A stretch of 50,743 nucleotides of DNA from Pelagicoccus sp. SDUM812005 (lineage in GTDB: Bacteria; Verrucomicrobiota; Verrucomicrobiia; Opitutales; Opitutaceae). The position numbers and the translations under genes were made by a program. Below the pieces are notes generated by a model, which was not told the DNA's origin, did no database searches, and worked only from the letters and a program-made list of their open reading frames with translations. Positions 8,747 to 50,205 of the stretch are shown in pieces (within the stretch, counting starts at the first letter, position 1; each line of letters starts with the position of its first letter). The stretch lies in NCBI RefSeq assembly GCF_031127875.1, contig NZ_JARXIA010000030.1, positions 1 to 50,743 on the forward strand. Reading direction: 5' to 3'.

Positions 8747-8766
8747 GGTCTGTGGGGCTGGGAGGT

Positions 8767-12856: not shown

Positions 12857-12874
12857 AGGTTATAAAGGGTTGGC

Positions 12875-14821: not shown

Positions 14822-14859
14822 TACTACAAAAAGAGTGGGGCGGCAGAAGGCCTTGGGGG

Positions 14860-21737: not shown

Positions 21738-21751
21738 GGAGTCAGATCGTG

Positions 21752-23809: not shown

Positions 23810-23888
23810 GGGAGACAGTGGGGGCTGCGGCGAGTCCTTTTTGTATCGGGATTTGAAGGACAATTGGCGAAGGGGCATCAGGCGGCGT

Positions 23889-25607: not shown

Positions 25608-25751
25608 GAGAACGAGTGTGTTGGGGGGGGAGGGAATGGGTGTTTGTGGATGCAAGTCCAAGCGGGGCCGAGCTTCGATAAAATCTATCAGTATGAATAT
25701 TAGACGCCTGCCGGAGGGGGCCTCGGTAAGCTGCGCTTGGAAAGCTTGACG

Positions 25752-25763
25752 CAAAGCGCTGTC
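25752..25763. promoter_or_regulatory. Possible LacI-family operator between sulfatase and regulator genes
   Basis: CAAAGCGCTGTC contains AAGCGCTG, one mismatch from the AAnCGnTT core common to many LacI-family operators. It lies 18 bases before the GTG of the LacI-type gene, inside the divergent promoter region. A related exact core (AAGCGCTT) occurs at 35686-35693. No binding evidence. Confidence 0.25.
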
Positions 25764-25780
25764 GATCAAAGCTGTGCGGA

Positions 25781-30998: not shown

Positions 30999-31619
30999 AT
31001 GTTTCTGCAGTTTGCTGTGGGTTGGCGTTACCCGAAGTAAAATCCAGAAACCCTCAGAAAGCAAAACGGCAGGCACGCGGTGCTGTCGTTGTCGCTAGGG
31101 GTAGACTAGATAGAACGGGGTAACGTAGGAGTTGTCGAGAAGCGCACGTTTCAGCGGCGCCCCCCGGACAGATCCATCAAGCAATATAGCAGGAATCCAG
31201 ACAACGGCCCGAAAATCGATTCATATGAAGTAGCTATCGATCGGAGCCGAATCGCGAACGGATACAGAAGAGTCGGAGACGTATAAATTATAAAGTCCTA
31301 CAATTGTACTATTATAAAATGGGCCTAGATCTTTGTATATATACGGAAGGCTTTGGACAAATGCGTACGAGAACTGCGATCCTCGCCCAATTGAGGGCCG
31401 TGGTGGGGGCTTCGTCGCGAAACGGTTTGGGGCCAAAAAACGGTTCCGATTTTTTTTCGTTTAGAGACGAAAAGGAGGCGTTCGTTTTTCTTGCCGACGT
31501 AAGTTTCCCGTAGGAGGGAGCGAATCCTGCGAGGTTTGCGCTTCGCTTGGGTATATAAAGAGCCTCCGCCCTGTTGGGGGCGGAGGCTAAGCTTTTTTAT
31601 ACTGACTGGATCCTCGGGC
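30999..31619. other. Intergenic region between the two TonB receptor genes
   Basis: This region is AT-rich at about 31270-31350, with TACAATTGTA (31299-31308, palindrome) and TATAAT-like boxes on the minus strand, so the promoter of receptor 1 probably lies here with a leader of 200-300 bases. A 69-codon frame on the plus strand (31304-31513) has no recognisable features and I do not call it. The terminator of receptor 2 occupies 31561-31588. Confidence 0.5.
31561..31598 (-). terminator. Terminator hairpin after TonB receptor 2, possibly bidirectional
   Basis: A perfect 11-base-pair stem, AGCCTCCGCCC (31561-31571) and GGGCGGAGGCT (31578-31588), lies 31 bases after the receptor stop. On the minus strand it is followed by CTCTTTATATA, a weak U tract. 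On the plus strand TTTTTT (31593-31598) follows, so it may stop transcription both ways. Confidence 0.75.
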
Positions 31620-34600: not shown

Positions 34601-35384
34601 CGAAACGAGTGTTTTCGAAGGGCTTGTATCCGATTGTGAAGTACGCTCGGTTGTCGGTCTCGCGTGCGGTCTTCACTCGGTAGCGACGATCGTTGGCGAC
34701 GCCGGCAAAGCGAACTGCCAACTTGTCCTCTATCAAAGCGCGGCTGAAATCGACCTTCAGGCGTCTGGTTCCAAAATTGTCGAGCTGGAATTCGACTTCG
34801 TTTTTATCCTTGGCCATAAAGGCCTTCTTCGTCGTGTAGTTCACGACGCCGCCGGGTTCGCCCAAACCGAAGAGGAGAGCATTGGCTCCGCGAAGGAACT
34901 CGACACGCTCCATGTTGTAGCGGTCGAGGGGGCCGAAGGCCTCGAGGTAGTTTGCTGCATTTGTGGCGCTGCCGAGTCCGCGAACGCGAATCGTTCCCTC
35001 GGAAGCGTTAACGTTGTTGAAGTCTCCACCGAGATAGCCCGATCCCAGGTTGATGGCAGTGACGTCGGAGGTCAGGTCTGTTTCGACGCCCGCCACCATG
35101 GAAAGAGCGGTGGCGACGTCGATGGCTCCGAGGTCATCCATGAAAGCGTCCGTCAAAACGGAGACGGATGCAGCCACGTCTTTCAGTTGCGTGTTGAGGC
35201 GGCTACCAGCCGTAGTGGAAGTCGCGCGATAACCGTCGTCGCCTTCGCTGGTAACGGTGAAGGGCGAGAGCTCGAAGATTTCCTCGTCTTCGGAGCTGGA
35301 GGAAGTCTGGGCACTTGCGTTTGCCCAGGTAACGCTTGCAGCGAGGGGCAGGGCCACCCAGCGGCAGATAGGGTTCTTTTTCAT
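31620..35384 (-). CDS. TonB-dependent outer-membrane receptor 2
   Basis: The 1254-residue receptor starts at ATG 35384 with a signal peptide (MKKNPICRWVALPLAASVTWANASAQ). It has the same EIFELSPFTVTSEGDDGYRA box as receptor 1 and a plug at about 60-215 (LKDVAASVSVLTDAFMDDLG, TIRVRGLGSATNAANYLE, VEFLRGANALLFGLGEPGG). The barrel ends FKLTNSFDF. It is about 100 residues shorter than receptor 1; differences are concentrated in predicted extracellular loops, which fits paralogues with different ligands. It has its own terminator and a long upstream region. Likely role: TonB-dependent import of oligosaccharides from the target polymer. Confidence 0.93.
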   Translation of the reverse strand: MKKNPICRWVALPLAASVTWANASAQTSSSSEDEEIFELSPFTVTSEGDDGYRATSTTAGSRLNTQLKDVAASVSVLTDAFMDDLGAIDVATALSMVAGVETDLTSDVTAINLGSGYLGGDFNNVNASEGTIRVRGLGSATNAANYLEAFGPLDRYNMERVEFLRGANALLFGLGEPGGVVNYTTKKAFMAKDKNEVEFQLDNFGTRRLKVDFSRALIEDKLAVRFAGVANDRRYRVKTARETDNRAYFTIGYKPFENTRFDAYVEDVHLQGRRPNYRLPQDNTSAWLREFNRAHADAAANGGLVNILDLDGNVTGTKPLQQYLDDNLVWDSSWSATNNGNSGPSPDILIESRVATDAEGNPLVREGDFRRFMDTRNNAFTGYYTPEGGWESPLGGQFTAYGTLTPTLGAGVNNNPRSQLRFHRSSFGNDAAPGEGAFVDPQVTDEGIFPYLDYEIGALPGNEREVENQKFGFNLEQKIVENLYFNLSYLKESYTAEQTFAPLAQAQAVSIDVNKYLPGSIPNPSLLTGANGLPVRTNLTLEAAVELAQTNVSNGIQVANNQAFLEQILIDPSLPFTPENDARTPNPNYLRPFFHGRTIGSYRNVESEAFLAQVNYDFDFSEKTDRLGFLGNHRLTGFMSGNSNQTHTYRFSGYADYNPGAFEGSTENIPAGRWFVPIWYIGDAVQPGDTALRITELPDTTVPNLGDSLPYYGYTATAANGDSPRGSWQVAPNPVTWRQYVIGNSSELTSIDAGAWGTSLQSFFWNNRIVATLGYRKDTVQNDAYFLTNPVDATQIDFDSGIGGSGSRIDEFDLSAPSVLNRTTVALRTNSLVFHATPWLRFFYNESENFALTRPTTDAFGRPNPPASGLTEEYGFGMSLLEDKLDLKFNFYDTRQKDQLPSGAAIRLEQRLPNFENDVLDILKDQDLLRQQGEATDFTIADWQEIRLIDGVLTTVNPALETGQQLVVDGVPQTNPDGSPTIEYTYRYEPLNNLGVTRDSVSEGWELSATYNPTRNLRVSANVSRLENELTNIERQSIEYVRLRSEYWQQFFDRGFHTNGDSDSTVYEPGETPAPDSNLLVTNLYNRFGTELLDAIRSEGTSGPGISEYNARLTANYSFREGKLKGFSVGTNLRWESGKVFGYNLVLRDAASLPEGFPTTDINRNGVLDEGEIIIVQDDFNNPLESDPITTGGVSFAYRSKLHGEKINWRIQLNVDNLFKQGGDLRPIRLRPDETVVYGINVPTTFKLTNSFDF

Positions 35385-35803: not shown

Positions 35804-36355
35804 CTAGTTCGTTCGCTGGATACGTTTTCTCGCTCCGGCGATCGCGAGCATTCCGAGGCCGAGTAGGGCGAAGGTGGGGCCGGAATCGGGCACGTTGCTC
35901 CGTGTCACGATAACGAGCTCGCTGGAAACGGATGTTTGTCCGCTAAACAAGTCTGTGACGCCTCCGACAAACGGTGGGAATGGAGCAAAAGGACTGGCGC
36001 CCACATCGTAAGCGAAAAGGCCGTTGGTCGCTGCAATCCCTTCGAGGTCGAGAACGAATCCATCTCCGATGGTGCCATCCAGATCGTATACGAGGCTGAA
36101 CAGGTCGACGAAGAATAAGTCGAAACTAGAGACGAGCGAGTTTCCGCTGAAGCTCATGGAGAAGTCGCTTATTTCGCCGGAACCGAAGAATCCGCTGATC
36201 TGCCCGTTTAGATTGATGTCGTCAGCAGTGAAGGAGCCGCTTACGAAAGCGCCTTCTTCGAATCCGCCTTGGGTGAATTCGTAGCTTATGCTGGCAGCCT
36301 TGGTGGTGGCAGCGGTAAGTCCCAGGAGGGCGATTAGGCATATCTTTTTTATCAT
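35804..36355 (-). CDS. VPDSG-CTERM (exosortase-sorted) surface protein
   Basis: From ATG 36355 (MIKKICLIALLGLTAATTKA, signal peptide) the protein has 183 residues. The mature part is beta-rich with many Gly, Ser, Phe and Asp (SISYEFTQGGFEEGAFVSGS, FSMSFSGNSLVSSFDLFFVD). The C terminus is a textbook sorting tail: the motif NVPDSGPTFALLGLGMLAIA, that is VPDSG, a membrane helix, then the basic cluster ARKRIQRTN. VPDSG-CTERM proteins are processed by an exosortase/EpsH-type enzyme and are linked with extracellular matrix or surface display. It sits between receptor 2 and the giant enzyme with its own terminator. Specific function unknown. Confidence 0.88.
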   Translation of the reverse strand: MIKKICLIALLGLTAATTKAASISYEFTQGGFEEGAFVSGSFTADDINLNGQISGFFGSGEISDFSMSFSGNSLVSSFDLFFVDLFSLVYDLDGTIGDGFVLDLEGIAATNGLFAYDVGASPFAPFPPFVGGVTDLFSGQTSVSSELVIVTRSNVPDSGPTFALLGLGMLAIAGARKRIQRTN

Positions 36356-36454
36356 GACAGTAGGTGTTGTTTGTTGTTTAGGTAGTAAGGGAATTGGCTG
36401 CGGCAAGGGATGGCTCCTATGAAGGGATGCTTGCGCTATCTAGAATCTAATTAA

Positions 36455-36519: not shown

Positions 36520-39500
36520 CTACTCGAATTTGAAGGTGTCGATGCTGTACTGTTTTTGGCTCTTGTTGACGAATACGAGGTACAGGTCTGCCGTTCCGGA
36601 CGGCACGGATGTGAGATCCACCGTGTAGGTCTGGTATGTGTTGCCGCTGCCAGGTATCGGATCTACGGATACCGTTGCGATCAGCTCGCCCTCTGGACTT
36701 CCGAGGCGGAACTCCACGTCCCCCGCGGATGCGGAGGCCGAGTTGGCGGTGAGGGTTACGGTACTCGCTGGCGAACCGAAGCGGAAGGCTCCGAACTTGA
36801 CCCATGTACCGCCTCGGACCTTGCTCAATACGCCATTGAGCGGAGCGATGCGGCTTGGGTCCTCAGGATGCGATTCCTGGTCGTAGGCGGCCGCATTGAT
36901 TAGCGTGCCGACTTCGGACGGGGTGTAGTCGTAGAAGACGTGCAGCATCGGCGTTGTTCCAGACGATTCACGGCTGTCGATGAAAGTCTGTGCGTTCTTG
37001 TTGCTTTCGTCGATGAGGGCGAGGGTCAGCTTGCCGTCGAGCAGGTTCGCGTTGACGGACGTGGAGACGTCGAGGCTTTCGATCGATTCCTCCAAGAGCT
37101 GGAAGGTGAGCTGGCCTTCCAGTATCGCGTCGGGATCGAGGATACTTGCATCCGTCAACGCGGCATCGGATACGCGGCTCCAGCTTAGGTTGTCTTCGTT
37201 CCAGTCGTCATTGGTGAGTCCATACACGTTTATATCGATCGAGCCTGTGTTTTCGCGCATGCTGCCTCTCAAGTAGAGATCAGCGGAGAGCACTTGCGTG
37301 GCGGGGATTTGATCGAGATCGAACTGCAGGTAGCTCACGCGATCGAAGGCAACGTTTCCGGTGTCCTTGACTGCGAGGCGCGTCTCCTTCGCGTACACGT
37401 TATCGGTATTCGAACCGCCTCGGATATAGCCGTCGGCGTGGGTGAATATATCCAGTTCTCCAATACCGCCGACGCCCTCCTCGAAGGTGAATCGACTGAG
37501 CTCGAAGCCGCCTTGCGGGAAGACGAGATAGAGGTCATGTACGCCGCTTACGCGGTCGAGGGCGTCGGTAGTGAAGACCTCGAACACGCCTGGGGCTGTC
37601 ATAGCGGGACGACGCACGAGCATGATCTGACGGTAGTCGATCCAGCTTAGGTCGCCTGACCTGAGGAGGTCACTGCCCGGTCCGGTGGGGAGGATTTCGA
37701 CGCTGCCGAGGAGCGGGCCGTCGGGCGCGATCTTGCGCAGCTCGACGGAGGTGGCCTGGAATCCCTTGTTCGCGGCCAAGATCGAGAAGGAGGAGACTCC
37801 GTTGCCGAAGTCGAAGTTCTCGAACTTTATCCAAGTACGGGGCCGTATCGAGGTAACCTCGTCATCCCTTACTGCGATGAAGGTGTCGTTGGCAGGATGG
37901 GATTCTTCGCTGAAGTCGGCTGCGAAGATGGTTTCCCCGGGCTTGCCGGAGGTCGTTTCCAGCTTGGAAACGCTTACGGGAGCGTTGGAGGCGATGGCTG
38001 GTTCTTGGCCGGGACGGAGGATGACGTTCGCGGAGATCGCTTCGCCGGAGGTGGAACGTACTACGTCGCGTCCAAGGCTCATAGCGGAGGCGTCGCCCAG
38101 GTAGAAGGTACGTTCCTGGTTGGCCTTTTCGCTGATGATGCCGAATCGACCTTCGAAGGTGATGCCGCTCTCGAGGTCCGTGTAGGTTCCGTGATCGGGG
38201 AGGGCGAAGATGTGGTAGGTGGCGGCGAGGCCGTCTACCATTGTCTGTACCCGAATGCCAACTACGGTACCGTTGTCTTCGATTTCCTCGACGGATTGTA
38301 CTACGGGAGCCTTGCTCTCGAAGCGGGGCTCGAAGACGGCGCTGAATGGCTGGCTCCAGGCTTCGCCTTGCTTGCGTATGACAAGGGTCGGCGTGGGCTT
38401 GGTGTTGTAGCCGGGCACGGTTTCAGTGGTCTTGGGCGAATCGACGGTGGTGTACTCGCGTCGGGCATGGCCGGGGATATGCATCTCCATGTAGCCCTTG
38501 CCTCCAGGGAGTCCTTCGATGACCCAGCGAGCGGCGACGTCGCCGGGGAATTCTCCTGAAGTCTCGACGTTTTCGAAGTAGCGCCATCCGGGCTGCTGGT
38601 AGTCGTCACCGACGTCGCTTTGGTATCGATCGGGGTCGCTGCTGAGCGGGATTGGGTTTCCGTTTTCGTCCCTCACCTCGACGCGGTCGCCGATATTGTG
38701 GTAGAGGTAGTCGTGGTATTCGTTTTCCAATGACGAATCGGAGCGGAACAGGTCGACGTAGAAACCGCTGTCTTCGCCGGTACGGATCATGGCCATGGTT
38801 CGCAGCTGTGTGGCTTCCGCTCCCTCTCCCGCATTGTCTAGGAAGGAGGTGTGGGTGAAGGAGATGTCAGGCGAAAGGGGGGCCTGCTTGGCCTTGGGCT
38901 CCATGGCTTCGATCACTACGTTGTTGGTGCCGAGCTTCGACCAACCGCCTTCGCCGCGCGAGGCGCCGTTGACGATGATGGTGTTGTGAGCGGCCCAGTT
39001 GCGGTAGTATTCAACGTGCTCTGGGAGGGCGTAGTTGACGTGGCCGGGATCGACGCCGAGGACTTCGCCGAGTCCGTAGAGTTCCATGTTCATGCCGCCG
39101 GCGTGGGCGTGCACGAAGTGTCCGCCGCCGACGTGGTACATGAGGCCCTTTTGTGGGTCGCCGTCCGCTGCTTCGTTTCGCTGGATGGCAATGGTGGCGA
39201 AGGGGAGCGTATCGGCCCGCGGCAGTTCGACCTCCGTTGGGGCATGGCTGACTTGGTCCGCGTACCAGAGCAGCTGCAGCGGCGCGTGGTGGGGAGAGAG
39301 CGTGTCGTACTCCTTGAGTTGGCTGCGATCGTGCTCTCCTCTATCGATGCCGTTGGCGATGAGGCCTCCGAGCTTGTCGGCGAGTTCGGCGTTTCCGTTC
39401 TTGAGAGCATGCTGGTAGGTCAGCTCGTAGTCATGGTAGGGGGCGTCGAGCACGCGAGGGCCGTCGCCGAAACGGATGAATTCGCCGTTCGGGAAGGTCA

Positions 39501-42500
39501 GCTCCCGGATGCGAGGCAAGGCGTCGGGAAGTTGTGGATACGTTTCGTAGAGGCCGAGGCTTGGATCGTAGCGATCCAGCAAGGTCATGGCGTAAACGGA
39601 CCAGTTGGCTACGGCGTTGGAGTACTGCAGCGACTCAGGCCAGATGTTGCCATCTGCGTCGTGAGCGGCGGCGAAGAGTCCCACAGGTCCTTGGCGCGGG
39701 GTACCGTCGGTGGTGTGCAGGCTTACGATTTCCGCGCGCAGCTCTGGATCGTCGAGGGCGAGGCCGTTGTGCAGGAGGCTGGGAGTCATAAGGACCGACC
39801 AGTTATTGTCGCGGGTCCCGTGCTCGAGGGTGAGCTCGGTGAAGGTCTTGAAGACCCACTGGGCGTCATCCCATGCGAAGGGAGTCAGTCGGCCAGCCTT
39901 GACGTCGTAGACGAGGTGGCCGTCGAAGAGCCAGTCGTAGAGGTAGTCGTAGACGATGGGAAGCTGGATGCTGATTTCGCGAGCTTCCTTGAGGTGGTCG
40001 TCCTGCAGGAGCCAGCCGCCGTTGCCGACGGAGGACGAGGGCTCGAGGCCGGTGTAGCCCTCGATGGCGTTTTGCATGATGTCCGCGCCGAGGCGAGCGT
40101 AGCGTCCATCTTCCGTGAGGTGGTAGAGGACAGCGGCATCTAGAGCGACGTTGAGCTTATCGCGTAGTGGTCCACGGACTACGCTTTCGACGGTGGAATG
40201 GACCGGGTCTGCGTCATCCCAACTGAGCGGCAGTTCGCGCAGGTAGGCGTCTCTGTCGGTTTCGTAGGCGGCGAGCTCGTCCGCGATGCGGTCTTGCATG
40301 CCTTGGAAGACGCTAGCTGCCCAGTCGTTGTTCTCGATCTTGGCCAGGATGGCGGCGCGTTCGCTGTCGCGGGTCCAGATGAAGGGACGTTCGAGGCGAA
40401 CCGGCGGCTCGTAATGACGAACCTTGAGGGTTGGAGCGTTTTCGCTTTCGGAGCTTTGGATGCTGACGAGGTCTTCGTTTTGGTCGCCGCCAGAAAGCAG
40501 GAAAGTGACGACTGCGTCGGCCCCCGCTAGCTCGACGAAGCTAGTGACGTCGAGTTGTTGGTAAGCCCCTGTCCTGTCGAATGACATCGTGCCGAGCATG
40601 GTAGCTCCAGCGCCATCGACGACGCCGTTGTTACTTTCATGGTTGGAGGAATTGTTCCAAGTGAGGGTAGATTCGTCCCAATCGTCGTTGAGCAGACCCC
40701 ATACCTCAATGCTCTTAGCTCGATCCTGGTTGTTGCTGCCATAGAGGGAGAGGACGACGCGGTTCAGGGGAGCCCTACGAATGCTCTCCAAGTCGAACTT
40801 GAGGTAGGTCATGTAGTCGTTCCAAGGCTTCTCAGCGTTGCGAACGCGCATACTGGTCTCTTCGCCGTAGTTGGTATCCTTGAAGCTGCCGGCACGGATG
40901 TGGGCATCATCGACAGCATTGAAGTCAGTATTGATCGGGGCTCCGAGTCCGCCTTGCGCAGAGTTGATGGTGATCAAGACGGTGTCTTCGTAGGTCTCCT
41001 CGCCGGCTACGACGGTGAGCTTGAATTCGTGAACGCCGACGAACAAGTCGAGCGAGAGTTCGAGTCCGGTGCCTACGACTTCGCCGTCCTTAGTCCAAGT
41101 AATGCTCGAAGGGGTGATGTCGTCGCGGAGGATACCCGAGAGTTGGACGGTCTGGATACCGTCTCCGTCTTCATCTTCGATAGTTTTAGCGGCCCCTGCA
41201 AAGAGAGCTTCCTGTCCGTCGATGTTAAGATCGATGACCTGGAGGTAGGTCGTGCGTTCGTCGCCAGCGCCCGGTACCTTCAAGTAGTAGTAGAGTTTTC
41301 CATCGTATACGTGTGCCACGCCTTTGTCGAAGGTGAGTCCCTCCGTCGGTTGGTAGACGGTCTCCCAGTTGTTGGTACCGCCTTCGGTGCGCTGCACGAA
41401 GGGGCGTCCACCTTTGAGAGTGATCATGAAGATGTAGTTGCCTGATGCATACAGACTATTGCCGCCGGCAAAATCATCCGTGACGATGAACTCACCCTCG
41501 CCCCGTGGGCGGTAGGCGTGGAGGTACACCGTTTTGTTAATCTCTCTATCGATGACGCGAGCGATAATATGCTCGTCGCCGCGATCGGTCACGTTGAAGT
41601 CGAAGTTACCGACCATGTAGGCTTGGTTCTTTTCGGTGGTATCAATCCAGTCTCCTGGCTCGAAGACCTTCATTATTTCCGGATCCAAGCGCGGGATGTC
41701 GAAGGGTTCGCCCTTGTAATTCTTCCAATCGCTCTTGCCGTCTTGGCTATCGGAGTAGGCGTAGTATGCGCCATTCTGATACAGGTAGCGGTCGTTGTTG
41801 TTAGATGATCGCTTCTGGAAGGCCACGCGTACCTTGCCGTTTGCGTATTTCATGGATCCGTAGACGCCGTAGTTGAAGTCGAGTCCCTTTCTGCTGGCGT
41901 TGTTTTCGTGGATACTCGTTTGGTTTTCCCACTTGGAGACGCCGTCGTATTTGGAGTATATCCATCTTCCGTTGTTGGACGAGCCTGCGCGCATGTAGAA
42001 GAAGAGGTCGCCTTCGTCATTGAGGAAGAAAGTAGGATAAGTAAGACCGCTCCAGAGATTGTGGTTCTCGGTCCCCGTCATGGTGAGATGCTTGTAATCG
42101 CCGTCTGGAGACTTGACGAACTTGTCCAGTGTGAACTCCTCGTCGGGCACTTCAGCCGCTCCGTCGATGGAGTAGCTGTAGCGGAAGTAGTCATTGGAGA
42201 AGGAGCCATCGGAGGGCCTGGTCCTTGAGTAGGCGTGCATGTCGTAGAGCAGGTGGATGGTGCCGTTTTTCGGACTGATGCCTACTGCTATGGTGTTGTG
42301 GGTCTCGCCGATCCAGTATTGGTTCAGGTAGCCGGTATGGCGGTGTGGGAACTCTATGGTCGCCATGGAACCAGTCTCTGTGTTGAGACGGGTGAGCATG
42401 ACATGGCGATTTTCCTTTCCGCCGCGGTACCAGGTCATGAAGACATACTGTTTGTAGACCTTGATACAGTCGCCGTGGGGCGTGAGGGCGTTGCCGAAGA

Positions 42501-45500
42501 ACCAATCGTAGCCGTCTTCGCGGTTCGGGGTACCGTTGGGGACCTTCTTGCCGTCGAAGAACATGACGTTGTCTGCGATCACCATCTCCGAGAGCAGCGT
42601 CGCTTGGTTGGGAGCAGTTCCGGTATCTCCTCCTCCGGTATCTCCACCGCCGGTGTCTCCGCCGCCGCTATCACCTGAGTCTGGGATGGAGCTGACAGCT
42701 ACGTTGTCGAGTTCGATATGACGAGAATCCGTGGTGGCGAAGTTCAAGCGGAAGGTGACGGAGCTCGATGCGTCCAAGGTGCGGTCGGCCAGCTCGGTGA
42801 GATCTACGTCGATGTCGCCGAGCTCGTTTTGAGCCGAACCGGTCTGGAGGGTGCCGGAGGCGATTTGGCCAGCTGTCAATGCTCCGCCTTCCAGGACCTC
42901 GAGCGCCCAGGTGGTGGTGCCCCCGCGAGCGACGGAGTCGAAGTGGAAGCCGGTGAGCTCGACATCGATGCCGTTGGGCTCGGTGACGACGAAGTCGATG
43001 GAGCGTTCGCCTGCGCCGGAGCTTCGAGAGCCGGTGTAGTGGAACGAGGCGTCGTTTGGCTCGGTCGCGGGCAGGTGAGTCGGGTCTGCAGGGGCTAGCT
43101 CAGCCGAGAGGCTGCCGAAGGTGCCGTCGTTGCTGCCGGCTCTGAACTCTTGCTTCCATGCGGAGTTGTTTTCAACCAGGCCAGCGAGTCCATCCTGTAG
43201 GGCGGCTTCGGGGGCATCCCACCGATCCCAACCGACGAATGCGGGTTCCGCCGGTGGAGTCGTTTGTTCTGTGGCGCTGATGCCGACGTTGTCCAACTCC
43301 ATGTACTTGCTGCCGACTGACTCGAAGGTCAGGCGGAAGGTCACGGTGCCGTCGGCTTCCAGATGGCGGTCCGCAAGGCCGGTGAGGTCTACATCGACGT
43401 CGCCCTTCCAGCCGGGGCCCCATCCGTTTGCCATCTGGCCGGTGGCGACTACTCCTGCTGTGAGGGCTCCGCCATCGACGACTTCCAAGGTCCAGGATGC
43501 CGTGGGCGATCCATTTCTTTGGATGGCATCGAAGTGAAAAGCCGACAGGTCGTAGCCGGTTCCGTTGGTTTCAGTTACCGCGAAGTCGAGAGACTTTGCT
43601 ACATCCGTTTTAATGCGGTAGCCCGTGTCGTTGAAGCTATCATCGGAGCCGCTTGTGATATCTGCTGCGGCAATATCGGCTGATAGGCTGCCAAAAGTGC
43701 CGTCCTCGCTGGAGCCTCTCCAGTTGTGGGTCCAGCCTGCATCTATGTTTGCGGTTGCTCCGGTCGCTCCGTTTTCAGTGGTCGCTGGCGAAGAGGCCGC
43801 ATCGCTGGTCCATTTCTCCCATCCGACAATCAAACGAGGATCAGCAGGGTTGTCCTCGCCCGTCTCGGACTCCTTCTCGATAATCTCGACTTCGTTGATG
43901 CTGACCCAATCGTTGGAATAGCCGGTGGCTCCGGTTACGGTGAGCTTCAAGTACTGGGCTTGAGTTGTTTCGAAGCTATGCTCGAAGGGGCCTGTTCCAG
44001 CTCCCGTGCGGCTGGCGACTTCTACGAAGCCGTCGGTGGGCGAGTTGGAGAGCTCGACCGTGTAGTGGTAGGCTCTGCCTTGGTAGGTGTAGATCTTGAC
44101 GCCTTCGATGTTCCTTGTGGTTCCGTAGTCAAGTGTCACGGATTTTGGATACACCTGGGCACTCCAGCGGTGGTCGTCGTCGGTGAAGCCGTCGAAGAGG
44201 TTGGAGGCTGGGTTTCCGTCTTGTTCGCCGTCGACGGAGGCAACGGATACGCCTTCTTGCGGAGTGCCGTCTGGGGGAGTGTCGTCAGGAGGCGTGCCTG
44301 TTCCGGAGATTTCGAGTGAATCGAAATTGAAGCTTCCGGCTTCGGAAGCGAAACGAAGGGTTTGTACGCCCTTTTCGAGCTGGATCGTCGCGGTGCTGGT
44401 ACGGAAGGCGGTGAGGTTCGGGCTCTTGGTAAGGTCGATGGTAGCCAAGGTCGAAGCGCCGCTCGTTACCTTCATCTTCGAATTGGCGGTCGGCGCAGCG
44501 GTGCGGACTTCGACCGTGTAGTTGCCGGCGTTGGGCGCGTCGACCGTGTACTCGGCGTACTGGCCAGGGGCGAAGCGATTGAGGTAGAATACGGAGTTGC
44601 TCCAGCGCGTAACCTTGGTGCTGCTGCTCTTGGTGGTGAAGTGCTCGGCTTCGATGAGCTTGGGAAGGGCGTGGGTTTTGGGATTCACGCGTAAGGTTTG
44701 GCTGGCTTGGGCAGGCAGGAAGTAGTCGTCGCCTTGGTCCGATACGGTGATCGTCGCTTCGCCGGGGCCGAGGAGGTGGCGAACGGTGTCGCTCCACACG
44801 ATTGCCACCTGGTTATTCGGGCAGACGTAACGGAGTTTGGCGTTGGGATTGTTGCTCGTGACTTGCAGCGTGAATTCCGCGTCGCCGGATTCCTTGGCGG
44901 GAATGGCTTCGAAGGTAATCACTTGCTCGCGCTTTGGCACGGAGAGCTCGTGGCCGACGATAGGAGCGGCGTTGTAGGTTCCGTTGCCGGCTTGCAATGC
45001 GTTGATGGTGGTCTGGCCGGCGCGCTTGACGACTACCGTGTTGCCGACGACTTCAGCGACGGCGGGGTCGGAGCTTTCGAAGGTGACAGGCAGGCCGGAG
45101 CTGGCGCTTGCGTTGAGGGCGATGTCGCCGCTGCCCCAGACGTATTCAGAAACTGGAAACGAGAATTGGATTGTCTGGTTGGTCTTGGAAGTGTCGGGAG
45201 TGATGGTCAGCGAGCGAACGACGCTTGCAGCGGAGTCGAACTCGCCGTCGCCGGCTTGGCTGGCGGTGATGTTGCAGGTGCCGACGCCCATGATCTGGAC
45301 CTTGTTGCCATCGACGATGCGGGCGATGTTCGGATCCGAGGAGGTAAAGGTGATGGGAAGGCCGGAGGTGGAGCTTGCGGTTAGCTCGAAGTCGTCGGCG
45401 CTTTCGATCTTGTTGGGCAGGGGATCGAAGGTGATGCTTTGCTCGGCGTAGTCGGTTTTATTGATATCGAAAACGTAGCAGTGGATGGTGACTTCGTCGC

Positions 45501-48500
45501 TCGCTTCCTTCTCGGCGAAGACGGCGACGATCTTGCCGTCTTCCATTTGGATTTGGCTCTTTTGCACGTCAATGCCGGTGTCGATCGCGTAGTCCGTTTG
45601 CCAGTCTAGGGTGCCCGCCAAGGCGCTTTGGACCGTCAGGCTACCGCCGCTGGAGGTGATTTTGTACATACGGTTGCCGTAGAACTCACCGAGTGTACCT
45701 GCACCCTCGAATTCGATGAACGCGCTTTCGCCGGCCTTTCTGAGATAGGCGAAGCCGTCGGTGCCTTTGGGCTTGTTTCTGAGGTAGACGTCGCCATGGG
45801 GAGACATGGCCGCGTCCGGGCCGCCAGCCCAGCCAGCGTCGTCTGGAACGCTTCGAGGGTCGGCGACCAGGAAGGGAGCGTGGTCGATAATCGGAAGCTC
45901 GTATGATCTGCCGTCTAGCGTGGTGCCGGCTCCATCCATGCGCGGTCCGAGATTAACCATGTAGTATCCTTCGTTAAGAGTCGTGGGAGACTCGGCCCAT
46001 CTAACGGAGTAGACGTAGTAGAAGTCTCCATTGAGAAGGTAGGGAGCGCCGTAGGCGTAGTTTCGCTCGCCTTGAGTGACTTCGCTGCCGGTACCTTGCA
46101 GGATCATCTTCTCTTCCGACCAAGCATTGCCGTCATAGTAGCTGATCATCATGTTGCCGCCCACGGCCGAGCCCAAGCGACGTTCGAAGAACACTTCTCC
46201 CTGATCGTTGTTGATCAATTTTGGATACGTCACGCCTGTGACTTTCTTGCCGGGCACGAGGTAGTCGCGCTGGGGGAGGAAGTTTGCCGCGGTGAAGTCA
46301 GCGTCCGGCGCGAAAGCGATGTTCTTTTTGGATACGATGTAGTTCAGGTCTTCGTTGTGGTGATCGTACATGATGTGTACGGTGCCATCGATGGGGCAGA
46401 CTCCGATGTTGGTGGTGAGGTGGGTGTCACCCTTTCCGCCGACGAGGCTGAGCTTGCCGGGAAGTTCGACGTGGGTCCAAGCGCCTTCGCCGATTTTCTT
46501 GCGAGAGACCATCAAGGCGCGGTCCGCGAATCCGCCTCTGTACCAGGTGTAGAAAACGTATCCATTTACTACTTTCACGCAGTTGCCGTGCGGGTTGATG
46601 GCGGCTCCGTAGTGGTAGGGCTTGGGATCGTCTGCCTTCCAGAAGAAGAGGGCGTCGTCCGTGACGGTAGAGCTTTCGTTCAGGGTAACGAGGCCAGTGG
46701 GCTCTACTTCGCCCGGCTCGTCGCCACCGCCGCCCGGTTCGCCGTCGCCTGGATCGCCGCCGTCGCCTGGATCGCCGCCGTCACCTGGATCGCCGCCGTT
46801 CGGATCGTACTTGACTGCGAGAGTCAGTCCGGCTCCGGATTCGACGTCGCTGATGATCGCTATCTTGTTGGTGGCGTTGACTCCCGCGATGACGATCGAA
46901 GCGAAGCCGTCGGCGATGTTGGCGTTGATGAAGTCGGTGGCGTCGACGGAATGGGTTTCGGTGGCTAGGTGCGAAACGACAACTGTCCCGAGGGCTTGGG
47001 CTCCGCCTGCTTCGACAGCTGCGGCGTCCGTTCCCTTGGAGGGAGCGCTGTTCCAGGTCAGCGTGTCGGCGCTCCATGCGTCGTCGCTTATCCCAAATAC
47101 GGTGATGGACTCGGGAGCGGTGGCGCCTCCTACCCGGGCGTCGAAAGAGAGGGTCGCCTCGGTGACTCCGCTGGAAGGCAGGCTGCTGAGGTCGAACTTC
47201 GTGTAGGCGATCAAGTCGTTGTCGTTGTTGCCGTTGTTGCGAACGTCGAGGCGGTTGTTAACGCCATCGTAGTTGGTGTCGCCGTTGGCGCCGCCCTTGA
47301 TGTATGTGTCTTCGAGGGCGCTAAGAGTTGCTTCGACGGGCTCTACCGTTTCGGTCACGGCGGTAGCGGACAAGGTGAATATCGAGATGGAGGAGGTGCT
47401 GCCGTCCTTCAGGCTGACTGCGGTCAATCGAATCTTGCTCGTCTTGATGCTGGGCAGCGGCACGGTTTGGTCGTCGCTGGGGTCGTAGCCGGTAGCGGCG
47501 GTCTGCCAAGCGCTGCCGTCCCAGTACTCGATGAGGTAGTCGCCGATACGGTCGAAGGCTTCCACGATGCGTACGGAGGTAATGTTTTTTTCCTGCCCGA
47601 AATCGAGCTCGAGCCATTGTCCGGCGCCGGGAGGATTCGAGTTCCAGCGGGTGGTGTCGTCGCCGTCGTTGGCGTCCTGGGCAGGGCGGTCCGCTTTTTC
47701 AGTGGATGCGGTGATGGTGGCGTCGGTAACGAGGTACTCTTCGGCTCCGTCGGGCAGCGGCAGCGTTACGGTTAGCGTGAACTCTGCTTGGCTATTCAGC
47801 CCGCGGCTGTCGGTCGCTTCGATCGCGATCTGGTAGGAGCCTTGGGTTAGGTGGGAAAATTCGTTTTCGTAGGCGGTCCCGGCTTGGCCCCAGATGAAGG
47901 GGGCAGTGGCGATCTCGCGAACGAGGTTGCCGTCGATGAAGAGGCTGACGCTGGTGAGGTCGCCGTCTAAGTCACCCACGTTCGCTTCGACGCTGAAAGC
48001 CTCGCCCTCTTCGATCGCGGTATCGCCAGCGGGGAAAACGAGCTCGATGTCGGGGGCGTATGCTATGGCTGTTGCTGCGAAGGTCCAAAGGGAGATGGAC
48101 GAGGTGCTGCCACCCTTCAGGCTGACTGCGGTGAAGCGGAGCTTGTTTGTTTCGATATTGGGTAGCGGGATGGTTTGGTCGTCGCTGGGATCCCTGCCGC
48201 TTGCCGCTCTTTGCCAGGCGCTGCCGTCCCAGTACTCGAGCAGGTACTCGTCGATACGGTCGAAGGCTTCCTTGATCCGTACGGATCGAAGGGTGCGGAC
48301 CGTGCCGAAATCGAGTTCGAGCCATTGACCGGCGCCGTTGCCGACCGAGTTCCAACGGGTGGAGTCATCGTGGTCGTTGGCGTCCTGGGCGAGCCGAGTT
48401 GGTTCGCTCGTCTTCTCGGTGGATGCGGTAATGGTGGCGTCTAGGATCGTGTACTCCACTGCTCCCGCGGGGAGGGGATTGCCTTCCACTGTTAGCTTAA

Positions 48501-50205
48501 AGGCCTTTTCCGCGGTGAGTCCGTCGTTGTCGGTCGCAACGACTTCGACGTCGTAGGTGCCGGCTTCGAGGCCGACGAGCTCGTATTCGTATACCGTCCC
48601 AGCTTGTCCCCAGATATAGGGAGGGCTGGTGATTTCGCGCACGAGAATGCCGTCGATGAAGAGGCCGACGCTGGAGATCGTTCCGTTGGCATCGGTGGCG
48701 CTCGCTTCGACGCTGAGGGCGGCTCCCACTTGTACTTCGATGTCGTCGGTGGGGGTGACGATTTCAAGCTCGGGGCGAATATCTGGATTTGCGATTTCGC
48801 CGGGAGAAACGGGCAGGGTGATGAGCTCGAGGGCGCTGCTGGTAGCTGTATCCAGATTGCTAGGACGACGTTGGGCGAGGATGTAGAGTGTGCCTCCGTC
48901 CTCCGCGATTTGTCCGGTCGCGTTGACGTAGTCGGCGTCGCTGGAGTAGAGCGTTTTCCAGGTCCCCCAATGGTCGGCGCCTTGGTTGGCCCCGTAGACG
49001 CGGAGTTGATTGGCGACGATGGTGACGAGGTAGAGCGTGTTGTTGGCGTCGTTGGTGGGATCGGCGTAGATCTTGGGGCGAATGCTGGAGCTGAGGGAGA
49101 GTTCGTTCTCGATAATGTCAGAGCTTCCGTCCGCCTTGTAGTAGTGGAACATGCGTTTCTGGTTCGCGTCGTTGTAGTGGCGGAAGAGCATGTGGACGCC
49201 GCCGTCCTTATCGATGGCTTGGCCGGTCTGGTTGTCGACGCGCTTGGCGTAGGGCACGTCCTTGAACTTGATATTCGGGGTGTTGAGGTTGATCGCGCCG
49301 ACGGCCGCGTTGCCGAAGCGGTCATTCCAGGAGGTTCCGCCGTCGGAGCTGTAGGCGTAGTGGAGGTCGTGGTTGGTTACGAGGCCGTTTTCGGACTGGG
49401 AGTTTTCGCGATAGGTCCAGCTGATGTGGGTCTTGCCGTTGCGGAAGCCGATGTCGTTGAAGTAGGCGTTGCGGTTGCTGTTTACGTTGCCCCCGTTGTT
49501 GTTGCTATCGGGGTCGGTGTAGTTGCCGGTCTTGCCGTTTACGACGCGAAGGCGCGGGGTCCACGTTTTATCGTCGTTGTAGGTAGCGATAAAGCTGTCT
49601 GCGTTGCCGGAGCCGCCGTCGTCACGCCAGACGGCTTGCAGCTTGCCGTTGGCCCCGACCCACAGGCGCGGGTAGCAGACGCGGGTGAGATTTTCGCCGG
49701 GAGCGAGGTATTGGCGCTCCGGTTCGAAGAGGCTGACTTGAAATTCGGAGTCGGAGGTGAGGGTCGCGTCGGGGGCTTGGGTGACGACGTAGCGGAGCTT
49801 ATCGGCGTGGTGTCCCCAAAGGATGTGGAGCCGCTTGTCGTTGGGCGAAACGGCGATGTTGGCGGTTCGGTGGGAGTCGGGATCGGTTTGGTCGTGGGAA
49901 CTTGGGAACTCCCGCTTTAGCCAGGAATCGCTTGTATCCGTGGCGGACTTACGCGCGAGAACGAGGGAACCATCTTCGTCGAAGTAGACGATGTATATCT
50001 TGCCGTCGGCGACCAATACGGCGTTTTGCTGGTGGGCGGCGGAGTTGGAGGAGTACGAGAATTCTCGTACGCCGTTGGGGAAGAACTGGGCGCTTGCGTC
50101 GATGGGGTCGACATGAGCGGTTCCTGCATCGACCGCGAACGACGAGCTGGCGGATAGGGTCGCTAGGGCGGCGACCGAAAGGGCTTTCAGGGCTTTCTTT
50201 ATCAT
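36520..50205 (-). CDS. Giant secreted multi-lyase: three BNR-4 propellers plus heparinase II/III-like lyase
   Basis: One frame of 4561 residues with a signal peptide (MIKKALKALSVAALATLSASSSFA). Approximate module order: BNR-4 propeller A 43-470 (H112, H132/133); Ig-like 476-570; discoidin-like 577-715; Ig-like 718-815; discoidin-like 816-950; DNRLRE/CBM96-like 955-1130; Gly-Asp-Pro linker 1131-1168; BNR-4 B 1171-1588 (H1262, H1282/1283); three Ig-like repeats 1589-1845; CBM6-like 1846-1964 (LIEAEHF); F5/8 type C 1989-2111; an unrecognised domain in two copies 2126-2312 and 2320-2509; Gly-Asp-Thr linker; BNR-4 C 2530-2990 (H2636, H2657); PKD-like 2995-3080; DNRLRE 3089-3266; heparinase II/III-like 3272-4049 (H3699 and H3701 in FVHAHAGGMNMEL, later HNTIIVNG); CBM6-like 4092-4244; DNRLRE 4247-4426; CBM6-like 4428-4561. 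There is no sorting tail. I infer extracellular depolymerisation of a sulfated uronate polysaccharide, probably ulvan; activity is unproven. Confidence 0.9.
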   Translation of the reverse strand: MIKKALKALSVAALATLSASSSFAVDAGTAHVDPIDASAQFFPNGVREFSYSSNSAAHQQNAVLVADGKIYIVYFDEDGSLVLARKSATDTSDSWLKREFPSSHDQTDPDSHRTANIAVSPNDKRLHILWGHHADKLRYVVTQAPDATLTSDSEFQVSLFEPERQYLAPGENLTRVCYPRLWVGANGKLQAVWRDDGGSGNADSFIATYNDDKTWTPRLRVVNGKTGNYTDPDSNNNGGNVNSNRNAYFNDIGFRNGKTHISWTYRENSQSENGLVTNHDLHYAYSSDGGTSWNDRFGNAAVGAINLNTPNIKFKDVPYAKRVDNQTGQAIDKDGGVHMLFRHYNDANQKRMFHYYKADGSSDIIENELSLSSSIRPKIYADPTNDANNTLYLVTIVANQLRVYGANQGADHWGTWKTLYSSDADYVNATGQIAEDGGTLYILAQRRPSNLDTATSSALELITLPVSPGEIANPDIRPELEIVTPTDDIEVQVGAALSVEASATDANGTISSVGLFIDGILVREITSPPYIWGQAGTVYEYELVGLEAGTYDVEVVATDNDGLTAEKAFKLTVEGNPLPAGAVEYTILDATITASTEKTSEPTRLAQDANDHDDSTRWNSVGNGAGQWLELDFGTVRTLRSVRIKEAFDRIDEYLLEYWDGSAWQRAASGRDPSDDQTIPLPNIETNKLRFTAVSLKGGSTSSISLWTFAATAIAYAPDIELVFPAGDTAIEEGEAFSVEANVGDLDGDLTSVSLFIDGNLVREIATAPFIWGQAGTAYENEFSHLTQGSYQIAIEATDSRGLNSQAEFTLTVTLPLPDGAEEYLVTDATITASTEKADRPAQDANDGDDTTRWNSNPPGAGQWLELDFGQEKNITSVRIVEAFDRIGDYLIEYWDGSAWQTAATGYDPSDDQTVPLPSIKTSKIRLTAVSLKDGSTSSISIFTLSATAVTETVEPVEATLSALEDTYIKGGANGDTNYDGVNNRLDVRNNGNNDNDLIAYTKFDLSSLPSSGVTEATLSFDARVGGATAPESITVFGISDDAWSADTLTWNSAPSKGTDAAAVEAGGAQALGTVVVSHLATETHSVDATDFINANIADGFASIVIAGVNATNKIAIISDVESGAGLTLAVKYDPNGGDPGDGGDPGDGGDPGDGEPGGGGDEPGEVEPTGLVTLNESSTVTDDALFFWKADDPKPYHYGAAINPHGNCVKVVNGYVFYTWYRGGFADRALMVSRKKIGEGAWTHVELPGKLSLVGGKGDTHLTTNIGVCPIDGTVHIMYDHHNEDLNYIVSKKNIAFAPDADFTAANFLPQRDYLVPGKKVTGVTYPKLINNDQGEVFFERRLGSAVGGNMMISYYDGNAWSEEKMILQGTGSEVTQGERNYAYGAPYLLNGDFYYVYSVRWAESPTTLNEGYYMVNLGPRMDGAGTTLDGRSYELPIIDHAPFLVADPRSVPDDAGWAGGPDAAMSPHGDVYLRNKPKGTDGFAYLRKAGESAFIEFEGAGTLGEFYGNRMYKITSSGGSLTVQSALAGTLDWQTDYAIDTGIDVQKSQIQMEDGKIVAVFAEKEASDEVTIHCYVFDINKTDYAEQSITFDPLPNKIESADDFELTASSTSGLPITFTSSDPNIARIVDGNKVQIMGVGTCNITASQAGDGEFDSAASVVRSLTITPDTSKTNQTIQFSFPVSEYVWGSGDIALNASASSGLPVTFESSDPAVAEVVGNTVVVKRAGQTTINALQAGNGTYNAAPIVGHELSVPKREQVITFEAIPAKESGDAEFTLQVTSNNPNAKLRYVCPNNQVAIVWSDTVRHLLGPGEATITVSDQGDDYFLPAQASQTLRVNPKTHALPKLIEAEHFTTKSSSTKVTRWSNSVFYLNRFAPGQYAEYTVDAPNAGNYTVEVRTAAPTANSKMKVTSGASTLATIDLTKSPNLTAFRTSTATIQLEKGVQTLRFASEAGSFNFDSLEISGTGTPPDDTPPDGTPQEGVSVASVDGEQDGNPASNLFDGFTDDDHRWSAQVYPKSVTLDYGTTRNIEGVKIYTYQGRAYHYTVELSNSPTDGFVEVASRTGAGTGPFEHSFETTQAQYLKLTVTGATGYSNDWVSINEVEIIEKESETGEDNPADPRLIVGWEKWTSDAASSPATTENGATGATANIDAGWTHNWRGSSEDGTFGSLSADIAAADITSGSDDSFNDTGYRIKTDVAKSLDFAVTETNGTGYDLSAFHFDAIQRNGSPTASWTLEVVDGGALTAGVVATGQMANGWGPGWKGDVDVDLTGLADRHLEADGTVTFRLTFESVGSKYMELDNVGISATEQTTPPAEPAFVGWDRWDAPEAALQDGLAGLVENNSAWKQEFRAGSNDGTFGSLSAELAPADPTHLPATEPNDASFHYTGSRSSGAGERSIDFVVTEPNGIDVELTGFHFDSVARGGTTTWALEVLEGGALTAGQIASGTLQTGSAQNELGDIDVDLTELADRTLDASSSVTFRLNFATTDSRHIELDNVAVSSIPDSGDSGGGDTGGGDTGGGDTGTAPNQATLLSEMVIADNVMFFDGKKVPNGTPNREDGYDWFFGNALTPHGDCIKVYKQYVFMTWYRGGKENRHVMLTRLNTETGSMATIEFPHRHTGYLNQYWIGETHNTIAVGISPKNGTIHLLYDMHAYSRTRPSDGSFSNDYFRYSYSIDGAAEVPDEEFTLDKFVKSPDGDYKHLTMTGTENHNLWSGLTYPTFFLNDEGDLFFYMRAGSSNNGRWIYSKYDGVSKWENQTSIHENNASRKGLDFNYGVYGSMKYANGKVRVAFQKRSSNNNDRYLYQNGAYYAYSDSQDGKSDWKNYKGEPFDIPRLDPEIMKVFEPGDWIDTTEKNQAYMVGNFDFNVTDRGDEHIIARVIDREINKTVYLHAYRPRGEGEFIVTDDFAGGNSLYASGNYIFMITLKGGRPFVQRTEGGTNNWETVYQPTEGLTFDKGVAHVYDGKLYYYLKVPGAGDERTTYLQVIDLNIDGQEALFAGAAKTIEDEDGDGIQTVQLSGILRDDITPSSITWTKDGEVVGTGLELSLDLFVGVHEFKLTVVAGEETYEDTVLITINSAQGGLGAPINTDFNAVDDAHIRAGSFKDTNYGEETSMRVRNAEKPWNDYMTYLKFDLESIRRAPLNRVVLSLYGSNNQDRAKSIEVWGLLNDDWDESTLTWNNSSNHESNNGVVDGAGATMLGTMSFDRTGAYQQLDVTSFVELAGADAVVTFLLSGGDQNEDLVSIQSSESENAPTLKVRHYEPPVRLERPFIWTRDSERAAILAKIENNDWAASVFQGMQDRIADELAAYETDRDAYLRELPLSWDDADPVHSTVESVVRGPLRDKLNVALDAAVLYHLTEDGRYARLGADIMQNAIEGYTGLEPSSSVGNGGWLLQDDHLKEAREISIQLPIVYDYLYDWLFDGHLVYDVKAGRLTPFAWDDAQWVFKTFTELTLEHGTRDNNWSVLMTPSLLHNGLALDDPELRAEIVSLHTTDGTPRQGPVGLFAAAHDADGNIWPESLQYSNAVANWSVYAMTLLDRYDPSLGLYETYPQLPDALPRIRELTFPNGEFIRFGDGPRVLDAPYHDYELTYQHALKNGNAELADKLGGLIANGIDRGEHDRSQLKEYDTLSPHHAPLQLLWYADQVSHAPTEVELPRADTLPFATIAIQRNEAADGDPQKGLMYHVGGGHFVHAHAGGMNMELYGLGEVLGVDPGHVNYALPEHVEYYRNWAAHNTIIVNGASRGEGGWSKLGTNNVVIEAMEPKAKQAPLSPDISFTHTSFLDNAGEGAEATQLRTMAMIRTGEDSGFYVDLFRSDSSLENEYHDYLYHNIGDRVEVRDENGNPIPLSSDPDRYQSDVGDDYQQPGWRYFENVETSGEFPGDVAARWVIEGLPGGKGYMEMHIPGHARREYTTVDSPKTTETVPGYNTKPTPTLVIRKQGEAWSQPFSAVFEPRFESKAPVVQSVEEIEDNGTVVGIRVQTMVDGLAATYHIFALPDHGTYTDLESGITFEGRFGIISEKANQERTFYLGDASAMSLGRDVVRSTSGEAISANVILRPGQEPAIASNAPVSVSKLETTSGKPGETIFAADFSEESHPANDTFIAVRDDEVTSIRPRTWIKFENFDFGNGVSSFSILAANKGFQATSVELRKIAPDGPLLGSVEILPTGPGSDLLRSGDLSWIDYRQIMLVRRPAMTAPGVFEVFTTDALDRVSGVHDLYLVFPQGGFELSRFTFEEGVGGIGELDIFTHADGYIRGGSNTDNVYAKETRLAVKDTGNVAFDRVSYLQFDLDQIPATQVLSADLYLRGSMRENTGSIDINVYGLTNDDWNEDNLSWSRVSDAALTDASILDPDAILEGQLTFQLLEESIESLDVSTSVNANLLDGKLTLALIDESNKNAQTFIDSRESSGTTPMLHVFYDYTPSEVGTLINAAAYDQESHPEDPSRIAPLNGVLSKVRGGTWVKFGAFRFGSPASTVTLTANSASASAGDVEFRLGSPEGELIATVSVDPIPGSGNTYQTYTVDLTSVPSGTADLYLVFVNKSQKQYSIDTFKFE
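42621..42665. repeat. 15-base tandem repeat coding for a Gly-Gly-Gly-Asp-Thr linker
   Basis: Three near-perfect in-frame copies of a 15-base unit (CGGTATCTCCTCCTC, CGGTATCTCCACCGC, CGGTGTCTCCGCCGC) encode the flexible linker just before the third BNR-4 propeller of the giant protein. Such units can gain or lose copies by slippage without breaking the frame. Confidence 0.85.
46744..46797. repeat. 18-base tandem repeat coding for a Gly-Gly-Asp-Pro-Gly-Asp linker
   Basis: Three in-frame copies of an 18-base unit (GTCGCCTGGATCGCCGCC, one base different in the third copy, 46780-46797) encode the acidic, Gly- and Pro-rich linker ahead of the second BNR-4 propeller of the giant protein. It marks a domain boundary and is a likely site of copy-number change. 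Confidence 0.88.

Follow-up and report, generated by a model that had tools for sequence, protein, structure and literature searches.

A giant predicted secreted protein joining PL24 and PL40 ulvan lyase modules in Pelagicoccus sp. SDUM812005

Introduction

Can a single secreted chain house a set of lyases directed at one algal polymer? This question is raised by a 50,743-nucleotide stretch of DNA from Pelagicoccus sp. SDUM812005 (Verrucomicrobiota; NZ_JARXIA010000030.1). The stretch, hereafter 'the window', is an entire contig (C43) of a 6.65-Mb genome (G000) in 118 contigs. It carries a minus-strand gene, hereafter 'the giant', for which an initial annotation had proposed a self-contained extracellular machine that attacks one complex polymer with two unrelated lyase folds. 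We propose, with a probability of roughly 0.78, that the giant is a single secreted chain of about 493 kDa that would act outside the cell to depolymerise ulvan or a closely similar sulfated green-algal polymer of rhamnose and uronate, and that its gene would be a long-standing chassis, maintained by selection, in which catalytic modules are exchanged from lineage to lineage.

Architecture of the giant

The giant gene is a stop-free single frame of 4561 codons counted from an ATG, and the open frame runs 59 codons further upstream (4620 codons in total as reported). The ATG was preferred because it gives a signal peptide and agrees with the start of the ortholog described below (MIKKAL in both). 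As the initial annotation had stated, the frame is uninterrupted and begins with a Sec signal peptide, judged by eye. The mature product has a predicted pI of 4.5, and the GC content at third codon positions stays between 0.69 and 0.86 along the gene (200-codon bins). The longest exact repeat within the frame is 25 nt, and a near-identical second copy is absent from the same genome, where the best other DNA match shows 70% identity over 1.2 kb.

A Pfam scan detected BNR_4 in three stretches (E 4.3e-92) and Hepar_II_III_C once. The three propellers and the heparinase II/III-like domain were thereby recovered in the segments where they had first been placed, and matches to solved structures agree closely with the earlier borders. 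The same scan gave CBM96 three times, F5/8 three times, CBM_6 three times, CBM_35_2 once and Big_7 twice. The giant is thus predicted to combine a signal peptide with three BNR_4 propellers (P1, P2 and P3), a heparinase II/III-like module and some 15 modules for binding or spacing (Table 1), and about a dozen of its parts are likely carbohydrate-binding.

Table 1. Features of the giant gene and its neighbours in the window
Feature	Position	Strand	Remarks
Giant lyase gene, whole	36520..50205	-	4561 aa, mature product about 493 kDa; ortholog in genome G007
Sec signal peptide, predicted	50134..50205	-	residues 1-24, judged by eye
P1, BNR_4 propeller nearest PL42/GH145	48796..50118	-	residues 30-470; H112 H133 Y178 R194
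Big_7 Ig-like spacer a	48481..48774	-	
F5/8 type C module a	48052..48444	-	
Big_7 spacer b	47761..48042	-	second copy of the Big_7-F5/8 unit
F5/8 type C module b	47356..47724	-	71% identical to module a
CBM96/DNRLRE module a	46816..47352	-	
Gly/Asp/Pro linker before P2	46721..46799	-	tandem repeat
P2, BNR_4 propeller, remote PL24 relative	45421..46713	-	residues 1165-1595; H1262 H1283 Y1327 R1343
Ig-like repeats (by eye)	44671..45438	-	weak Big_2/Big_3_5 similarity
CBM35-like module	44296..44664	-	
F5/8 type C (CBM32-like) module c	43852..44253	-	
Module X, copy 1	43270..43848	-	without Pfam or NCBIfam family
Module X, copy 2	42691..43269	-	
Gly/Asp-rich linker before PL24	42620..42676	-	tandem repeat
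P3, predicted PL24 ulvan lyase module	41209..42600	-	residues 2536-2999; H2636 H2657 Y2723 R2739
Spacer, PKD-like by eye	40951..41208	-	without Pfam match
CBM96 module b	40411..40938	-	
Predicted PL40 ulvan lyase module	38071..40404	-	residues 3268-4045; N3468 W3469 E3524 Y3528 D3581 H3699 H3701 Y3725
CBM6 module a	37456..37938	-	
CBM96 module c	36916..37458	-	
CBM6 module b	36523..36912	-	C-terminus of the giant
Small VPDSG-CTERM protein	35804..36364	-	directly beside the giant in both species
TonB-dependent receptor (Plug)	31620..35384	-	
TonB-dependent receptor (Plug)	26937..31076	-	
LacI-family regulator	25730..26821	+	
Sulfatase	23889..25799	-	
Two more BNR_4 proteins	20379..23878	-	
Two sulfatases around a heparinase II/III-like protein (12875-14821)	11519..16314	-	

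The four catalytic modules

P3 matches the whole domain of the PL24 enzymes Uly1 (E 1e-149) and LOR_107 (chain 6byp, E 1.4e-147). The catalytic residues of LOR_107, named in PMC8377490 as His146, His167, Tyr243 and Arg259, are kept in P3 in the order given in Table 1; they were placed by spacing, so that Tyr243 corresponds to Tyr150 of FoRham1, whereas PMC8377490 equates it with Tyr202. By sequence, P3 is a PL24 module. It shares the whole domain and the His/His/Tyr/Arg site with LOR_107 and Uly1; however, the solved chains are about 480-516 aa long, whereas P3 makes up one of the four catalytic modules of a 4561-aa protein.

The heparinase-like module gives a whole two-domain match to Uly1040 (E 4.8e-153), a PL40 enzyme of Alteromonas macleodii HT-3, and all eight mutation-tested residues of that enzyme (Asn245, Trp246, Glu301, Tyr305, Asp358, His485, His487 and Tyr511) are kept, with the counterparts listed in Table 1. 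The mutations showed these residues to be needed or important in Uly1040 (PMC12915356). The module is predicted to be PL40, and it differs from Uly1040, an 856-aa enzyme (PMC12915356), in being a single module of the giant. The literature lists both PL24 and PL40 among the ulvan lyase families (PMC12915356, PMC8511951). A stand-alone PL40 relative in the same genome (L085:10161-12929, contig C30) has Gln at the His487 position, and so does L036.

P1 is more remote from solved enzymes. Its best solved relative is FoRham1 (PL42), with E 7.5e-19, and 3.2e-19 as the best of seven sequences listed, and its four site residues align with FoRham1 His85, His105, Tyr150 and Arg166. The posterior catalytic His48 of GH145 (BT3686) is not kept in P1, where the aligned residue is Ala66; therefore, only a lyase site is predicted in P1, not the GH145 hydrolase site. 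Against the NCBIfam BT3686 equivalog P1 scored 121.9 bits, short of the cut-off of 700. P1 thus resembles FoRham1 and GH145 as a propeller with the lyase-side catalytic residues, but it is remote, lacks the hydrolase histidine and is fused to three further catalytic modules. FoRham1 itself has trace activity on ulvan (PMC8377490). A stand-alone protein on contig C33 of the same genome (L083:9112-10491, plus strand) is 64-66% identical to P1; it is possibly the source or a descendant of the giant's first module, and the two pair weakly (82/79) in the tree described below.

The best match of P2 in the Protein Data Bank is Uly1 (E 9.2e-21, split in two pieces), and its identity to P3 is 29%. Among the best 50 of 1371 matches to its low-confidence structure model, PL24 structures come first (21-24% identity) and propeller lectins take ranks 19, 20, 22 and 24. 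The PL25 enzyme PLSV_3936 (5UAM/5UAS) is absent among the propeller matches listed, which for the P2 model are these best 50. The closest relative beyond the genus (44-46%) occurs in G272, taken as Pontiellaceae bacterium B12227. The initial assignment of the propellers to PL24/25 therefore stands for P3 as PL24, whereas P1 has its nearest solved relatives in PL42/GH145 and P2 is a remote relative of PL24.

We also compared 18 BNR_4 rows. In their tree, which holds no characterised PL42 row, P1 (100/100), P2 (100/100) and PL24 (98/96) form three separate groups, so that P2 falls outside PL24. The His/His/Tyr/Arg site is kept in all seven giant propellers of two species. In sequence alignment the catalytic residues are intact in all four catalytic modules of the giant, and all four match lyase families, in agreement with the earlier claim of two unrelated lyase folds on one chain. 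Of the conditions under which the initial annotation would have failed, missing HMM hits, lost catalytic residues (checked by sequence alignment) and an assembly fusion were examined, and none of them applied.

Relatives of these modules were also counted in samples of genomes (own genome counted throughout). At E 1e-20, PL24-module relatives were found in 3 and PL40-module relatives in 15 of 387 genomes of the phylum sample, and the latter in 7 of 57 relatives at E 1e-3. P1-related proteins occur in 7 of 367 genomes (E 1e-30); P2-related proteins occur in 9 of 367 (E 1e-15) and in 5 of 200 genomes of the family (E 1e-20). A search that reaches close relatives only reported two outside PL40 relatives, from Pontiellaceae bacterium B12227 (41%) and Alteromonas aestuariivivens (39%), which were the nearest found.

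An ortholog with another catalytic set

A BNR_4 search across eight genomes of the genus found giant frames in two, own genome counted. The second, in genome G007, has 4024 open codons with four BNR_4 matches and encodes a protein of 4009 aa (L100:4108-16137, minus strand, contig C31) inside an independent 254-kb contig. Apart from these two, the longest open frame among the matches listed has 1744 codons; the counts rest on genome samples, in which further giants may be missed.

The G007 giant begins with P1 (75% identity to the window), Big_7-F5/8-Big_7-F5/8, X, a second PL24 (52% to P3) and P2 (86%). It continues with Ig (85%), CBM35 (76%), F5/8 c (78%), another F5/8 and PL24 (68%), and ends with a spacer, X (74%) and CBM6-CBM96-CBM6 (55-65%). 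PL40 is absent from it, and a search of the whole G007 genome at E 0.001 returned no PL40 match. Within their common frame, each giant thus has at least one catalytic module that the other lacks: PL40 here and the second PL24 in G007.

We then calculated the ratio of nonsynonymous to synonymous substitution rates (dN/dS) between the two genes, excluding modules without a partner and the spacer that follows PL24. All 11 compared stretches gave values of 0.09-0.31, with dS of 0.74-1.25; therefore, those shared modules are under purifying selection. P2 is the most conserved of the 11 (86% identity, dN/dS 0.09). From the differing catalytic sets, the giant seems to evolve by swapping catalytic modules. 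The neighbourhood is also kept in G007: the VPDSG-CTERM protein (66%), the LacI regulator (79%), a BNR_4 protein (63%) and FBPase (80%), together with the TonB receptor beside the giant (93% over 982 aa, the G007 gene being cut by the locus edge).

Accessory modules

Between and after the catalytic modules lie two Big_7, three F5/8, three CBM96, one CBM35 and two CBM6 modules, Ig-like repeats, a PKD-like spacer and two copies of a module that we call X. The Big_7-F5/8 unit is a tandem duplication, with 80% DNA identity over 219 nt and 71% protein identity between the F5/8 modules. For module X no family was found in Pfam or NCBIfam, where the weak rows (E 0.26 and 0.043) are far under the cut-offs. 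Further copies of X occur in seven proteins of the fetched G272/B12227 loci (L087, L088 and L089), all of them large and PL40 and BNR_4 proteins included, mostly near the C-terminus. A structure model built from four sequences (pLDDT 67.5) shows a beta-sandwich, for which Foldseek lists CBM61 first (E 1.9e-5); this makes X a candidate carbohydrate-binding module. P2 and X are the least known parts of the giant.

Genomic context

Two TonB receptors and a LacI regulator are encoded in the window, along with three sulfatases, an SSF transporter, two extra BNR_4 proteins and a heparinase-like protein. The best solved relative of the last (12875-14821) is an alginate lyase (6jp4/6jph, E 1.9e-14), and it is a further candidate lyase. 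The small protein next to the giant (35804-36364) bears a VPDSG-CTERM sorting signal and is a possible partner or anchor of it. The cluster also includes a DUF1501 and Planctomycete-type cytochrome (PSCyt1/PSCyt2/PSD1) pair (7298-11184), and a phage-type integrase (1150-2202) is followed by a repetitive coding-like 'FAKAS/FAKAT' stretch (2284-2640).

In G007, a sulfatase, GH78, GH3 and an MFS transporter lie directly upstream of the giant. Their counterparts in the window's genome (87%, 66% over a cut gene, 83% and 95%, respectively) are at the right end of contig C33. Because this end is syntenic, in G007, with sequence beyond the right end of the window, it is likely that C33 and the window belong to a single large locus that the assembly has split; the contigs were not joined. 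C33 carries a large GH78/sulfatase/BNR_4 cluster (about 70000-143260; L081-L084). The 23 C33 proteins scanned include seven GH78-type rhamnosidases and five sulfatases, and the contig also carries TonB receptors, a stand-alone PL24 (42-44% to P3) and the P1-like protein. The TonB receptors, sulfatases, BNR_4 proteins and seven GH78-type rhamnosidases fit ulvan.

GH88/105 matches number eight in this genome and 14 in G007. BNR_4 and GH88/105 (PF07470) stand side by side in same-length open frames twice in the former (C96:96971-98935 and 214192-216372) and four times in G007 (C50, C2 and C60). These apparent fusions of a lyase with an unsaturated uronyl hydrolase suggest that the fusion of successive steps may be a habit of the genus.

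Proposed function and alternatives

We propose that the PL24 and PL40 modules would cut internal bonds between 3-sulfated rhamnose (Rha3S) and uronate by beta-elimination, with different acid/base chemistry and catalytic residues. P1 may trim Rha-(1,4)-glucuronic acid (GlcA) ends or variant sequences, and P2 may cut a related linkage, again at ends or in variant stretches. The CBM6, CBM35, CBM96, F5/8 and X modules, carried by Gly/Asp-rich linkers and Ig-like spacers, would hold the chain along the cell-wall polymer, so that several active sites could work one strand. The oligosaccharides would enter through the TonB receptors encoded beside the giant, and sulfatases and GH78-, GH3- and GH88/105-type enzymes would finish them.

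Several observations weigh against this proposal. The Pfam and NCBIfam scans detected no sorting tail on the giant, and none of the eight GH88/105 matches of the genome lies on C43 or C33. The His/His/Tyr/Arg site is present in 18 of 18 BNR_4 rows, and therefore points to an intact site rather than to a particular polymer. The accessory modules likewise fall short of proving ulvan, because the founding member of CBM96 has alginate as its ligand (PMC9971899). A fixed set of four is not required either, since PL40 is missing in G007 and the second PL24 in the window species. It is also possible that the giant is cut into separate enzymes after synthesis. The four lyase-type modules do sit on one chain, but the term 'self-contained' in the initial annotation is too strong, because the same genome has stand-alone PL24, PL40-like and P1-like proteins as well as separate GH88/105 genes, and because the G007 ortholog carries another catalytic set.

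Among the alternatives, we considered that the giant is a polyprotein, made as one chain from which proteases release separate lyases by cutting at the Gly/Asp-rich linkers. Repetitive linkers do precede P2 and PL24, and the stand-alone proteins just mentioned speak for it as well. However, the fusion has been retained in two species at dS near 1, and binding modules and spacers lie between the catalytic units, which makes this idea doubtful. We also regard it as unlikely that only PL24 and PL40 are catalytic, with P1 and P2 serving as polymer-binding propeller lectins. Such lectins have the same fold, as their ranks among the P2-model matches indicate, and both modules lie far from the solved lyases (E 3e-19 and 9e-21, with 21-24% identity of the P2 model to PL24 chains); nevertheless, P1 and P2 keep the four site residues in both species, and P2 is the best conserved stretch of all. 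A Rha-GlcA polymer other than ulvan as the target, such as a sulfated arabinogalactan protein or another green-algal rhamnan, would suit P1, which is nearest to enzymes of gum arabic and arabinogalactan, and GH145 lyase sites cut Rha-GlcA in sulfated arabinogalactan protein (PMC8406133). This target appears distinctly improbable, given the naming of PL24 and PL40 as ulvan lyase families and the GH78- and sulfatase-rich cluster of the same genome. Finally, an assembly fusion of separate genes, suggested by a gene start only 538 bases from the contig end, was rejected as having practically no chance, because the ortholog in an independent assembly has collinear module blocks and conserved neighbours, and the gene has no internal exact repeat longer than 25 nt and an even codon composition.

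Within our proposal of a single depolymerising chain, we tentatively suggest something further, which we hold to be less probable than its failure: the chassis may swap catalytic modules from one species to another in adaptation to the local polymer, P2 may found a lyase family with its own linkage preference, and X may be a new carbohydrate-binding family spread through such loci.

Relation to known enzymes and significance

The giant belongs with the multimodular carbohydrate-active enzymes, a known kind, and its nearest known counterparts are single PL24 and PL40 enzymes, P36, GH5-PL31 and PL7-GH16-PL6. P36 of Formosa agariphila (S1_25 sulfatase and GH78) is likewise a multicatalytic ulvan enzyme and was called the first multimodular enzyme of ulvan degradation; however, it has two catalytic domains, neither of which is a lyase (PMC8511951). 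The CelAly-type enzymes (GH5-PL31; PL7-GH16-PL6) and CelA also join several catalytic domains and binding modules in one chain that acts on algal or plant walls, but they have two or three catalytic domains, and the algal cases act on alginate or cellulose (PMC13235733). The giant extracellular protein of Ca. Menyafoubacter is another very large protein of the PVC superphylum with a lyase domain (PL6), and action on green algal cells was suggested for it; it differs in its other domains, toxin-like ones included, and in the predation suggested for it (PMC12057145). In the portions of the open-licence literature covered, subscription papers being outside this scope, we met neither an enzyme with four lyase modules nor one in which PL24 and PL40 are joined.

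If active as predicted, the giant would be the first single chain with four lyase modules for one kind of polymer described in that literature, and it combines two unrelated lyase folds. P2 and module X offer two testable unknowns. Because their catalytic sets differ, the two orthologs form a natural experiment that bears on the benefit, if any, of linking lyases and on the reasons for module exchange. The giant also puts a large ulvan-type system in Verrucomicrobiota, whereas PL40 homologues are 92.6% from Bacteroidota and 4.8% from Pseudomonadota, according to PMC12915356.
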